DNA from: a virus
IMG/VR virus record: IMGVR_UViG_3300045141_000322
Location: 1-39,840 of that record
DNA length: 39,840 nucleotides
Direction: 5' to 3' (one strand)
Under the pieces are notes generated by a model. The model worked only from the letters and a program-made list of their open reading frames with translations. It was not told where the DNA came from and ran no database searches. This document shows, in pieces, positions 2,751 through 15,486 of this stretch (within the stretch, counting starts at the first letter, position 1; every line of letters starts with the position of its first letter). A program made the translations under genes and the position numbers.

Positions 2751-5107
2751 GCGGAGACTCCCTGCACACTCGCGGTGCCCAGCACGCGGCGACCAGTCGG
2801 CCGCAACTCCGCGACCAGCGCGCCCATCGAGCCGGGTTCATAATGCGGCTGCGCGGCGCGGCCAGTGAAGCGCCGGCGCGACATTGCCCCGTAGCGGCAG
2901 TTCTTCACGAGGATGCCGTTAGCGAAGTACTCATGGCACTCCGACACCGTGATGTTGTAGACCGTGCCGGTCCCCACCCGGAAGGAAGCGACGACGTGCG
3001 GCGCAGTGTACGGAGCAGGTCCGGGTGGCGTCGTAGCGATTGCTCCGGAAATGTGTGTCGCAGACTGGACAGACACGCTCGATGTCATCGATGCCAGAGG
3101 CACGCCGCCACGCCGATTTGCACGCGTTGGAACAAAAGCGGGCGGTGCTCCGACGTGTGATGTCGATGTATTCATGGGCACATTGAGCACACTGTTTTTG
3201 AACAGGAACTCGGGTCTGCCAAATCTGTTTGGCATGGTCGCTGTGCCACAGGCGACCGGCATCAGACCGATGCCACGCCACGGTGAGCGGACGAATGGTT
3301 GCCAAATGGACCGGATCGTACGACTTCTCCAATCCGTGCATGCGGAGATGGTCCGTGCCTGGCACGCATTCCAGATTGTCGAGCGCGTTATTCGCGATAT
3401 TCCGGTCGCGATGATGGATGTGATGCCCTGGCGGAATCGGCCCGTATGCCTTGCGCCATCGCGCACGCGCGTTGCGGTTGTAGTTCCCGGCCATCCCAGC
3501 CCCCTCTCGCCAATCTTCACCGTGTCCATCGGCACAAAGCCCCGACCCTCAATCCAGACGGGATGACTATCCGTTCCCGTGAGACTCGCGCCGTTGGAAA
3601 ACTCCAGCCGTCGCAACGGCACATCACGTTGCGTCAGCGCAACCGCTTCCAGCGGTTTCCAGCCTTCACGCGTGAGCACGATATCTAGCAGCCCTAATGT
3701 CGCCAGCGGTTGAGGCCCATCCAGCGTGGTCACGAGACTTTCCCCACTGAGACACGCGTCTAAACAATGGTCGTCGCCAGCCGTATCCAGATCCTCGGGA
3801 TTGGTCTTGTCCCGCACCGCAGCAGGGAGCGTGCGTATCAGATATCGACACGCCCGCTCGACCTGCAGCCACGGGCGGCCATCCGGCGCGTCCCGCAGCA
3901 TTTCCTGCAGCCGTTGCCAGCCGTTCATGCGATCGTTGTTGCTGCGCGTCACCGGCACGCCCAACCGCAGGAAGGTTTCGGCAATCGCCTCGCCTACCTG
4001 GCCGTGCCGCTGCCAGATGGCGGGATCCGCCCACACCTGCGGCACTTTCTTAAGGCCGAGCGCTTTACTTTTCTCTTTGATGGCGCGGGCGACATCGCGC
4101 ACGGCCGTTTCCTTGAATTTCAACTCATCGACCACGAGGTAATGGCCGTCACTGGCGGCAATCCACCACAAACAGACGCCCGGGGCGTTGAACCCCCAGT
4201 CCATCGAGCAAAACCACGTCTGCGCGGCCGGATACTGGATGGTCATGTCCACGACGTGCTTGCGTTCGTCCCAAATCCCGAACATCTGGCCGTCGAACAC
4301 GCGCCAGTTGCCAAAGCGCAGTTGTTGATAGCGGGCGGGATCGAGAATGGTGAGCGCCTGCTCGTATTCGGCATCCCGGTACGGGTTATCCTCAAGATTG
4401 GCGGGGACAAAGCCCCAATCTTCGGGTTTGTAGAAGGGATAGCGTTCGGCATCGACGCGCTTGTCGATAAAAAAGTCCAAGACCCAGAGTGCGCCGACCC
4501 CGCCGGGGTTGCTGCCACATTTCACCATCGCCCGCAGCCCGGGTTTGCTGGTTCTGGCGCGCGTCATAATCTCCAGCGCGACATCGCGCTCAAAGGTGAC
4601 GAGTTCATCGAACGCGATGCAGTCATATTCGGTCGAGAGGTACTTGCTAATCGCGCCGTCGTTGTCGCAGTGCCCGAATTCCAAGAGCGAGCCGTTGCTG
4701 AACCGAATCACGTGCTCCGAAGTCACCAGCACCGCCCCGAGCATCGGCGCCTCGCGCGAGGCTTTGCGGATATGGGTCTTTTCCAGCTCGGGAAACGTGC
4801 GCCGCAGTAAGAGCGCTTCATAGCCGGGTTGCCGCAAACAGCGCGTATACAAATCCCAGCGCAGCGAATGGCTTTTACCAGGCCCGGCACTTCCTCCGAA
4901 TAGCGTGTGTTTCATGGGACATTCGTGAAACTCCACCTGCCGCGGCGTCGGCACGTACAAATCTTTGAGGTTGCCCTTGCCGTCTTTCTGCTGAATGCGC
5001 CAGTTCAGTTGCCGCGCCTGACAGGTGGGGGTCGGGCACAGATAGACCGCTGGCCCACCGGACACCAGCGTCTCGCCGCACCAACAACACACCGCACCTT
5101 GGGGCAC
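2747..5107 (-). CDS. terL: Terminase large subunit interrupted by an intein
   Basis: The 786-codon gene encodes a 501-residue terminase once residues 452-736 (an intein) are removed. GTG start at 5107, preceded by AAGGAG six bases upstream. A Cys cluster (C7, C8, C10, C24, C29) suggests an N-terminal zinc knuckle. The ATPase has Walker A GGSAGPGKS (71-79) and Walker B YDCIAFDEL (161-169). The RNase H-like nuclease shows D303 in SMDWG, D361 in ADPAIW, and the final motif DDHCLDA..CRYGAM, which is exactly where the intein sits. The enzyme powers DNA translocation into the prohead and cuts concatemers. Splicing is presumably required for nuclease activity. A separate HNH gene lies inside in another frame. 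Confidence 0.95.
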   Translation of the reverse strand: MPQGAVCCWCGETLVSGGPAVYLCPTPTCQARQLNWRIQQKDGKGNLKDLYVPTPRQVEFHECPMKHTLFGGSAGPGKSHSLRWDLYTRCLRQPGYEALLLRRTFPELEKTHIRKASREAPMLGAVLVTSEHVIRFSNGSLLEFGHCDNDGAISKYLSTEYDCIAFDELVTFERDVALEIMTRARTSKPGLRAMVKCGSNPGGVGALWVLDFFIDKRVDAERYPFYKPEDWGFVPANLEDNPYRDAEYEQALTILDPARYQQLRFGNWRVFDGQMFGIWDERKHVVDMTIQYPAAQTWFCSMDWGFNAPGVCLWWIAASDGHYLVVDELKFKETAVRDVARAIKEKSKALGLKKVPQVWADPAIWQRHGQVGEAIAETFLRLGVPVTRSNNDRMNGWQRLQEMLRDAPDGRPWLQVERACRYLIRTLPAAVRDKTNPEDLDTAGDDHCLDACLSGESLVTTLDGPQPLATLGLLDIVLTREGWKPLEAVALTQRDVPLRRLEFSNGASLTGTDSHPVWIEGRGFVPMDTVKIGERGLGWPGTTTATRVRDGARHTGRFRQGITSIIATGISRITRSTIWNACQARTISACTDWRSRTIRSIWQPFVRSPWRGIGLMPVACGTATMPNRFGRPEFLFKNSVLNVPMNTSTSHVGAPPAFVPTRANRRGGVPLASMTSSVSVQSATHISGAIATTPPGPAPYTAPHVVASFRVGTGTVYNITVSECHEYFANGILVKNCRYGAMSRRRFTGRAAQPHYEPGSMGALVAELRPTGRRVLGTASVQGVSA
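2900..3754 (-). other. Intein in terminase large subunit (285 codons)
   Basis: The insertion begins with Cys (TGT at 3754-3752, residue 452) in CLSGESLVTTLDG (block A). Block B is GASLTGTDSHPVW with the TxxH signature. Block F/G is VYNITVSECHEYFANG followed by ILVKN, then Cys+1 of the C-extein at 2899. Precise removal joins DDHCLDA to CRYGAM, restoring the terminase nuclease motif. The penultimate residue is Lys, not the usual His. About 87 residues precede the embedded HNH ORF and about 30-40 belong to the C-terminal Hint strands. The middle 170 or so residues are an out-of-frame translation of the HNH gene with no stop. Self-splicing is expected but unproven. Confidence 0.9.
2931..3494 (-). 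CDS. HNH homing endonuclease nested out of frame in the terminase intein
   Basis: The 187-residue ORF lies entirely inside the intein, starting at the third position of an intein-frame codon. ATG at 3494 is preceded by GAGAGGGGG about 6 bases upstream, a good ribosome binding site. An HNH motif occupies residues 24-53 (HHIHHRDRN..NNALDNLE..DHLRMH). Two zinc knuckles follow: C102/C105-C121/C125 and C142/C145-C160/C164. Its last codons overlap the intein C-terminal block in another frame. HNH enzymes of this type nick or cut intein-less or intron-less alleles to drive homing. Out-of-frame nesting instead of in-frame fusion to the Hint fold is unusual. Confidence 0.9.
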   Translation of the reverse strand: MAGNYNRNARARWRKAYGPIPPGHHIHHRDRNIANNALDNLECVPGTDHLRMHGLEKSYDPVHLATIRPLTVAWHRSDAGRLWHSDHAKQIWQTRVPVQKQCAQCAHEYIDITRRSTARFCSNACKSAWRRASGIDDIERVCPVCDTHFRSNRYDATRTCSVHCAARRRFLPGGDRHGLQHHGVGVP

Positions 5108-13421: not shown

Positions 13422-13663
13422 GGCCGTACTCCTAACACGCGCAGCGCATCCTGGGGGGTGACGACAAAGTGCAGCGGCCAGCCGCGGTCCACGAGTTGCT
13501 GCTGGCGCACGGTGCGGCGGCCGATGAGGGTCTTGCAGTCCATCATGTGCAGTTGCCCGCGCCAGAGACACAAAATGTCGAACGGGTCGAGCAGCACATA
13601 ATCGGCGCCCACCTGGCGCAGCGTCTGGAGGATCGCCCTTTCGGTGCTATCGCGCTTTTTCAT
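13418..13663 (-). CDS. PD-(D/E)XK-type nuclease-like protein
   Basis: This 81-residue product starts MKKRDSTERAILQTLRQVGA. DPFDILCLWRGQLHMMDCKT gives an acidic residue followed by a DxK, then QQQLVDRGWPLHFVV with a conserved-type Gln, the minimal VRR-NUC/Holliday-resolvase-like core seen in small phage nucleases. Start overlaps the methyltransferase stop (TGATGA), so the pair is co-translated. It might process DNA branches or cooperate with the methyltransferase; no restriction partner function can be inferred from the sequence alone. Confidence 0.6.
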   Translation of the reverse strand: MKKRDSTERAILQTLRQVGADYVLLDPFDILCLWRGQLHMMDCKTLIGRRTVRQQQLVDRGWPLHFVVTPQDALRVLGVRP

Positions 13664-15486
13664 CAGCAGTCCATGTAGGCGGCGATGAATTCTGCCGCGA
13701 CCTGGGGGCAAATGGCATTTCCTGCGCCTCGGAGCAGGCCAGCACGCCGCGGGATCTTTCCGCTCAATGGAAATCCTCCGCTGGCTTGGACGATTCCAAG
13801 ACCAGTACATAGACCGTCCCTGATGCGCCGGCCACCCGTCGTTTGGTCACCAGTGGATCGCCATATTTCTTCCAGCGCTGAAAGTGCTGCTGACACATCC
13901 AATGGCGTCGAGCCGGTCTCTGGCACACCACGCAGCGTCTGACCGGCTTCTTGTGCGCTTTCCCCAGATGACAGCGAATACACAACGTCTGCAGGTTCTC
14001 GATCCGATGGTCGTGCCAGTTGCCATTGATGTGATGCACGTGAAGTTGTCCACGCGGGGGCACACTCCCACACTCTTCGCATTGTGGCTTCCTGAATTGC
14101 TTGGACACATTGTGTTGAGCACTGAAGGACTTGCCTCTGACACCAACGCCGCGCAAGATCGCACAAGGCAAGGAGCAATATTTTCTCGCCTTGAATCGCG
14201 TCATATCCTCCAACGTCGCCCCGTAGCGATGTCGATATAACTGCACACCACAACGTCGGCAGAATTTCGTCGGCGCGACAGCCGCTGTTCTCGGCATATG
14301 AAGTCACTTCGTTTTCGACGTGGGACACGAACGAATCCCAGTCAGGCCCCATGACACGGGAAAGCCCATCAAAAACAAACTGAAAAAGGGGTTGAGAGAC
14401 CCTCTGGATGGGCCGCGCTTTGCCGTCGCTGCAGGGGAGCCAGACGACATCGGACCAGAAGGTGCTTGCCACACCTGTCGGCCCAGCAGCGCATTCTCGG
14501 GCACGTTGGGCTGATAGCTCCCGTCCTTGTGGTCCCGGCTGGTCGGCGTGGCCCACGTTGCCAGTGTTGCCGCTTGGTTCAAATCCTGCGGGCCACCCTT
14601 GCGCGCCATCTCCCTGGCTGCGCCTTCCGGCGTCCGCACATTCTTTTCCCCGTCCGTCTCGCGTGTCGTCGGCCATCCCGCCAGATTCGCCGCATCCGTC
14701 AGCGTCGTGCCGCTGTAATGCGTGGCCGTCGGCGGATAGTCCTTCACGCCGCTGCCGATTTGATCCTGCGCGGTCGGCGTCGGCCACGTCGCAAACTTCG
14801 CCACATGTTCCAGACTCACCGTGTGCTTCCGTCCGTCCAGCGTCACCCAGGTCGCGCTCATCTTCGAGACGGAGCGGCCGCCGCTCGGGGTGTTCGGCGT
14901 CGGCCACGTCGCCAGTTGCGCCGACGTTCGCAAGTCCATCCCGCCGTCGCCGTGTGCTCCCGGCCCGTTCGTGTCGCTGGTCCTCGGACTGGGCCACGAA
15001 CCAGAGCCGCTGCCTGATGTGGAACGCGCCGACACTTGCAGCCGGGAGACCACACGCCCCGACGGCGTAGCCTTCCGCTTCCAGGTCATCGCAAACACGG
15101 TCGAGCCATCCGTGTCCAATCGCTGCTTCAACTTGCTCACTAATAATTGTTGCAGGGCGGCACTTCTTAATGAGCTGGAACCAGACAGGCCAAAGGTCGC
15201 GCGGATCGTGCCCGCCAGCTTGGGCGCCGGCCGCCGAGAAGGGTTGGCAGGGCGCTGACCCTGTCCACACGAATCGATCGTCAGCCCAACCGGCGAGTCG
15301 GAGGGCATAACTCCAGCCGCCGATGCCGGCGAAGAAATGGCACTGGGTAAATCCGCGAACATCGTCGGCTGATACGTCTGCGATGGATCGCTCATCGACC
15401 TCGCCGTCCGCAATCAGGCCATCGGCTATCAGTTCGCGCAGCCACGCGGCAGCGAACGGATCGTTTTCCGAATAGTAGGCGGCCAT
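13663..15486 (-). CDS. DNA cytosine-5 methyltransferase, interrupted by an out-of-frame HNH gene
   Basis: The 607-residue ORF has motif I FFAGIGG (51-57), motif IV SAPCQPF with catalytic Cys80, a motif VI variant EQV (117-119), and motif VIII FHIRQRLWFVA (155-165). A long ADA/GRR repeat region (190-340) is where target recognition is expected, followed by WLPCSDGKARPI. The last motif, RGAGNAICPQVAAEFI, lies at 586-601. Residues 397-574 are an out-of-frame readout of an embedded HNH gene with no stop codons. The enzyme would methylate cytosine, probably to resist host restriction. Whether the inserted protein folds and works is unknown. Start at 15486 couples to the upstream stop. Confidence 0.9.
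   Translation of the reverse strand: MAAYYSENDPFAAAWLRELIADGLIADGEVDERSIADVSADDVRGFTQCHFFAGIGGWSYALRLAGWADDRFVWTGSAPCQPFSAAGAQAGGHDPRDLWPVWFQLIKKCRPATIISEQVEAAIGHGWLDRVCDDLEAEGYAVGACGLPAASVGAFHIRQRLWFVAQSEDQRHERAGSTRRRRDGLANVGATGDVADAEHPERRPLRLEDERDLGDAGRTEAHGESGTCGEVCDVADADRAGSNRQRREGLSADGHALQRHDADGCGESGGMADDTRDGRGKECADAGRRSQGDGAQGWPAGFEPSGNTGNVGHADQPGPQGRELSAQRARECAAGPTGVASTFWSDVVWLPCSDGKARPIQRVSQPLFQFVFDGLSRVMGPDWDSFVSHVENEVTSYAENSGCRADEILPTLWCAVISTSLRGDVGGYDAIQGEKILLLALCDLARRWCQRQVLQCSTQCVQAIQEATMRRVWECAPAWTTSRASHQWQLARPSDREPADVVYSLSSGESAQEAGQTLRGVPETGSTPLDVSAALSALEEIWRSTGDQTTGGRRIRDGLCTGLGIVQASGGFPLSGKIPRRAGLLRGAGNAICPQVAAEFIAAYMDC
13764..14297 (-). CDS. HNH homing endonuclease nested out of frame in the methyltransferase gene
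   Basis: This 177-residue ORF lies wholly inside the methyltransferase gene, starting at the second position of a host codon. It has zinc pairs C13/C16 and C41/C45, the HNH core CEECGS..LHVHHINGN..HDHRIENLQTLCIRCHLGKAH (residues 73-115 in part), and another knuckle from C122/C125. The ATG lies six bases after the stop of the overlapping WPTP ORF, in the same frame as that ORF, so re-initiation is possible; its own ribosome binding site is weak. The stop falls just before methyltransferase residues FPLSGKIP. It probably cleaves uninterrupted methyltransferase alleles. Confidence 0.85.
   Translation of the reverse strand: MPRTAAVAPTKFCRRCGVQLYRHRYGATLEDMTRFKARKYCSLPCAILRGVGVRGKSFSAQHNVSKQFRKPQCEECGSVPPRGQLHVHHINGNWHDHRIENLQTLCIRCHLGKAHKKPVRRCVVCQRPARRHWMCQQHFQRWKKYGDPLVTKRRVAGASGTVYVLVLESSKPAEDFH
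14304..15395 (-). CDS. Long overlapping ORF in the methyltransferase gene (WPTP-repeat protein)
   Basis: The frame starting MSDPSQTYQPTMFADLPSAI (ATG 15395; an upstream start at 15413 is possible) runs 363 codons, one base offset from the methyltransferase. It contains GSTVFAMTWKRKATPSGR, repeats of the type WPTPN/WPTPT/WATPT and ends NPFFSLFLMGFPVSWG. Proteins of this type are, from memory, annotated widely in phages. The repeats are the same bases as methyltransferase VADA units, and SARSTSGSGS is the shadow of VGAFHIRQRLW. It is either a genuine second product or a recurrent misannotation of the second frame. Confidence 0.35.
   Translation of the reverse strand: MSDPSQTYQPTMFADLPSAISSPASAAGVMPSDSPVGLTIDSCGQGQRPANPSRRPAPKLAGTIRATFGLSGSSSLRSAALQQLLVSKLKQRLDTDGSTVFAMTWKRKATPSGRVVSRLQVSARSTSGSGSGSWPSPRTSDTNGPGAHGDGGMDLRTSAQLATWPTPNTPSGGRSVSKMSATWVTLDGRKHTVSLEHVAKFATWPTPTAQDQIGSGVKDYPPTATHYSGTTLTDAANLAGWPTTRETDGEKNVRTPEGAAREMARKGGPQDLNQAATLATWATPTSRDHKDGSYQPNVPENALLGRQVWQAPSGPMSSGSPAATAKRGPSRGSLNPFFSLFLMGFPVSWGLTGIRSCPTSKTK

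Follow-up and report, generated by a model that had tools for sequence, protein, structure and literature searches.

A probable non-splicing HNH homing element nested out of frame in a viral C5 methyltransferase gene

We describe an HNH endonuclease gene that lies out of frame within the C5 methyltransferase gene of a virus, at a locus where selection, as judged from comparison with relatives, holds the methyltransferase frame open across the entire nuclease gene. The window, i.e., the whole stretch of DNA that was analysed, is a 39,840-base IMG/VR virus record. In our assessment, the insert, which follows the variable region of the enzyme and precedes motif X, is quite probably a non-splicing HNH homing element that would spare its host by means of an open second frame. 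By the same comparisons, the element belongs to a separate and widespread lineage. The 59 comparative cases indicate that a nuclease gene can persist within a coding gene with neither an intron nor an intein because selection keeps the second frame open. The same solution is present in at least two HNH lineages, the family of the window and the ShiLan domain, and what was a curiosity thus becomes a testable class. The findings also offer a likely answer to the question of how the hidden nuclease gets translated, and they imply that one or two genes go unannotated at such loci. Most of the relatives are metagenomic contigs, and all evidence is comparative.

The HNH gene and the open methyltransferase frame

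The locus comprises the following features of the window:

13663..15486, minus strand: C5 methyltransferase, frame A, 607 aa, open across the whole insert (PF00145, phrog_363)
14304..15413, minus strand: overlapping open reading frame (ORF), frame B, up to 369 aa, in phase with the HNH gene, with an uncertain start (phrog_1008)
13763..14382, minus strand: net insertion of ~207 codons of frame A, from the spacing compared with empty relatives, borders approximate
14298..14382, minus strand: left end of the element, with the end and stop of frame B followed by the HNH start; weak Shine-Dalgarno match
13764..14297, minus strand: gene of an HNH endonuclease (177 aa; PF01844, phrog_1271) with flanking CxxC pairs, in phase +1 to frame A
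13702..13722, minus strand: motif X (GNAICPQ), residues 589-595, where frame A has resumed past the insert

The methyltransferase ORF matches PF00145 with 54.8 bits (cut-off, 22) and phrog_363 with an E-value of 4.5e-68, and it carries the features that identify a C5 enzyme, i.e., the catalytic motifs, at residues 51-165, and motif X. The HNH ORF covers methyltransferase residues 397-575 in phase +1. Its product matches PF01844 with 24.9 bits (cut-off, 21.4) and phrog_1271 with an E-value of 3.2e-12, its metal-binding and HNH residues show no variation across the HNH family of the window, and it shares 59% identity with the nearest HNH relative. PDB sequence searches found no relative, Foldseek with a structure model of the HNH protein returned nothing at E ≤ 0.001 among solved structures, and a plasmid search with the protein as query gave no match. 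In the initial annotation, which was made from the sequence alone, the frame, its coordinates, the motif residues and the out-of-frame HNH gene had been described in the same way; we re-derived the 607-residue ORF with the HNH gene at +1. The alignment to uninterrupted methyltransferases that it had proposed now delimits the insert. The distance from C-x-D to GNA(I/V) is 237 residues in the window versus 30-32 residues in 43 of the 80 nearest methyltransferases, giving a net insert of ~207 residues (about 369-575; 621 bp), of which 534 bp are the HNH ORF and about 87 bp the remainder. The nearest relative in the alignment, L093, is 64% identical and element-free.

The open host frame through the HNH gene is not due to chance. 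IMG/VR and GTDB contigs were scanned with HNH alignments and two phage records were added, giving 64 distinct HNH loci with a score of at least 98 bits, the window included. The host frame is open in 59 of these, and the HNH gene is at +1 relative to it in every one of the 59; the remaining five loci, which are non-nested relatives, carry stops in that frame. For the null expectation, synonymous codons were reassigned within each HNH gene using its own codon usage. Given the HNH proteins, 364 host-frame stops are expected over the 59 loci and 0 are observed, a difference for which a joint probability is only indicative because the loci were treated as independent. By contrast, the third frame of the same loci has 281 stops versus 259 expected, and the null is thus calibrated. 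For the window alone, the probability of an open host frame given its HNH protein is 0.0004-0.0015. The contrast is sharpest in AT-rich copies, such as that of Staphylococcus phage CUB-EPI_14 (36% GC), where the host frame is free of stops across the region and the third frame contains 29. Among isolates, Komagataeibacter phage phiKX1 (LC644975) is organised like the window at this locus. One locus counted among the 59, L201, is not a case of read-through, because its HNH gene follows a complete methyltransferase and the open frame is not joined to the enzyme.

These counts come from the survey of nested HNH ORFs against chance that the initial annotation had called for, and they bear on its proposal that HNH genes repeatedly insert at conserved sites while the host protein is kept as an enlarged chain. 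The 59 loci strengthen that proposal, while the second locus on which it drew, an intein with an HNH gene at 2931-3494, is weak support when taken alone since its open frame has P = 0.12. Layouts resembling this second locus, at +1, are present in L051 and L071.

Relation to known systems, distribution and mobility

The initial annotation had also held that no named element of this kind exists. This does not stand, because the ShiLan domain, an out-of-frame HNH insertion in mycobacteriophage methylases (PMC9957025, 2023; PMC11855218, 2025), has the same architecture; intron and intein features are absent from it and evidence of transfer is present (PMC11855218). The ShiLan domain and the insertion in Pacc40 gp60, both in actinophage methylases (PMC9957025, PMC11855218), resemble the window element in having an HNH gene in another frame and a stop-free host frame, and in having a patchy distribution with transfer between methylases, here seen in relatives of the window, with neither intron nor intein. 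However, ShiLan gp65 is a TDPPYG-type methylase with the HNH gene at +2, whereas the window has a C5 host with the HNH gene at +1, and the two HNH families have only the HNH core in common (17.6 bits). Based on the different enzyme class, phase and HNH family, the window element represents a lineage that is separate from ShiLan but of the same kind. In the open-licence literature, no report of the C5-methyltransferase HNH family was found. The window element shares the HNH motif, zinc-finger cysteines, a sporadic occurrence and conserved target genes with the free-standing HNH homing endonucleases of phages; unlike in those, its gene is nested in the host coding sequence and the host is spared by an open second frame.

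Comparison of the relatives L010 and L011 shows movement of the element between diverged methyltransferases, in these two relatives and not in the window: the two have in common an identical 588-bp block that includes the element, but identity falls to 78% on its upstream side and to about 54% downstream. Among the 80 methyltransferases nearest to that of the window, three are occupied (L094, L114 and L122) and 43 are clearly empty. Across the family, the insertion sites lie on either side of motif IX or near motif X, and the hosts are nearly all methyltransferases, belonging to several enzyme classes. With insertion-site classes set by motif patterns, and 10 of the 59 rows classed as "other", the HNH tree requires 14 changes between classes, compared with a minimum possible of 5 and a shuffled mean of 36.8; well-supported branches force at least three changes for the class of the window. 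In L134, L144 and L172, the insertion site holds extra in-frame segments of 16-25 residues, which may be scars left by elements since lost. A mark of the ShiLan domain proper is that the insert begins with sequence similar to the DNA immediately 3' of its site; such direct repeats are seen in L187, L114 and L122 and are not significant in the window.

The alternative that fares best against these data is that the locus is a compact restriction-modification pair, with the HNH protein as a restriction enzyme shielded by the surrounding methyltransferase and the overlap a matter of genome economy, not of homing. In favor of such a pair, HNH restriction enzymes exist, the HNH protein is under purifying selection (see below), and nearly all hosts are methyltransferases. 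However, the element moves without its methyltransferase, is found at several sites and in more than one enzyme class, is missing from the majority of near relatives and seems to leave in-frame remnants, and we therefore regard a restriction-modification pair as improbable. Returning to the homing element, we lean toward the broader view that C5 methyltransferases host a wide class of phase-locked, non-splicing homing elements, in which the element's own stop-free second frame replaces splicing and would therefore make it mobile between several sites and enzyme classes; where an overlapping second ORF is present, the element would add a third coding layer, with its translation coupled to that ORF.

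Family members also occur in a different arrangement. In L193, L201, L217 and L222, the HNH gene is placed after the complete C-terminus of the methyltransferase. All of these except L193 have the C-terminal segment twice, with the second copy located downstream or at the end of the HNH gene. From this layout, elements of this type seem to provide the host gene with a new end where others keep a frame open.

Selection on the two frames and the case against splicing

Substitutions were compared in 24 closely related pairs, which overlap so that the counts are non-independent. In these pairs, the omega-like ratio is 0.24 in the HNH frame, 1.47 in the host frame and 1.76 in the third frame. The share of substitutions that involve a stop is 0.010 versus 0.051 expected in the host frame, and 0.076 versus 0.073 expected in the third frame. 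In diverged pairs, host-frame similarity is 0.361 versus 0.279, a small excess (z = 6.9; third frame, z = 0.7). Altogether, these figures support the idea that the nuclease is under purifying selection and that the host frame is selected mainly for openness; as estimated from these pairs, the host-frame amino acids are barely constrained. In L206, the HNH gene has decayed through a nonsense codon and the host frame is still open. The small similarity excess, which the third frame lacks, is what would be expected if the insert, read in the host frame, were a working domain of the methyltransferase, with the HNH reading only secondary. However, the omega-like ratios of the two frames point the other way, the insert is missing in most relatives, and the structure model of frame A predicts it at low confidence, making a functional domain very unlikely.

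Phage introns commonly hold HNH genes (PMC11855218), and the region might be taken out by a self-splicing intron or in another way at the RNA level. We consider this extremely unlikely here, because only the remainder of about 87 bp lies beyond the HNH ORF, Rfam gives no match at the gathering score in the window nor at E ≤ 1 in 13500-14700, and spliced RNA has no need of an open host frame, yet 59 of 59 loci have one. Rfam also gave no match on 20 nested loci, and the conserved core of a group I intron was thus not found in the window or in these loci. As for an intein, TIGR01443 (C-terminal) is absent from the methyltransferase, although it was detected in the terminase intein of the same window. 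The initial annotation, which had seen no intein blocks and no room for an intron core, is upheld on both points. Ribosome bypass was dropped by argument, since bypass needs no open host frame. Inteins and group I introns with HNH genes are likewise mobile, nuclease-bearing inserts in conserved genes; by contrast, the window insert has neither splicing blocks nor an intron core and is expected to remain in the product. Finally, the HNH region is about 55% GC and the second locus is open at P = 0.12, but the view that chance, or else GC content together with HNH codons, produced the open frame is refuted by the stop counts over the 59 loci and in the window alone, by frames that are still open at 33-38% GC (L002, L089 and L267) and by the stops in the five non-nested relatives, so that its probability is negligible.

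Frame B and translation of the HNH gene

Frame B (14304-15413) is missing from the initial annotation. It matches phrog_1008 with an E-value of 1.4e-25, and its stop lies 6 nt upstream of the HNH ATG in the window. In 61 distinct methyltransferases, the window included, frame B has 1 stop versus 94 expected under synonymous reshuffling of the methyltransferase frame, while a control frame has 389 versus 408; on this comparison, frame B is kept open by selection. It carries LNPxxSxxLMGFPxxW, and in L189 and L217 a similar segment shares the frame of motif X, at the usual place of motif IX. Frame B also matches a separate protein, L179, with 57 bits. The corresponding stretch of frame A, at about residues 172-345, is modeled at low confidence. 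M.EcoHK31I is a natural two-polypeptide C5 methyltransferase with motif IX on the second polypeptide (PMC3404938). By analogy, frame B possibly encodes a putative motif IX subunit like that of M.EcoHK31I, with a large chain carrying motifs I-VIII and X and a second polypeptide carrying the motif IX-like segment; frame B probably holds the variable region as well. The small subunit of M.EcoHK31I is reportedly encoded in an overlapping frame. The window differs from this enzyme in that its putative second ORF overlaps the large one and is then followed by the HNH gene.

The arrangement upstream of the HNH gene recurs. In 28 of the 59 loci, the HNH gene is closely preceded by the end of an ORF that is in its phase and spans at least 100 codons, and the first HNH Met has an in-frame stop no more than 3 codons away in most loci. 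Shine-Dalgarno matches of at least 5 nt precede 23 of 57 assigned HNH starts compared with 9% of background ATGs, an enrichment that is inflated because the starts were chosen partly by that match.

We suggest that a ribosome on the methyltransferase frame would read through the element, and that the product would gain a spacer of ~207 residues before motif X. Such an insert may be tolerated because, in enzymes of this class, motif X already seems to be joined to the catalytic domain by an unstructured linker. Coupled re-initiation is the probable route by which the HNH protein would be translated from its own ATG behind the frame B stop; in many relatives, the HNH start may also be served by a Shine-Dalgarno sequence of its own. 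The target of the HNH protein would then be methyltransferase genes that lack the element, cut close to the conserved motif IX-X region, and repair would copy the element in.

Two further arrangements were observed among the relatives. L225 has a shortened element in which frame B is fused in frame to motif X and the catalytic frame meets stops, and from this layout it looks like a deletion derivative. In L266 and L005, the C5 methyltransferase is split at the catalytic PC motif by an apparent intein, and L266 also bears an out-of-frame HNH element.
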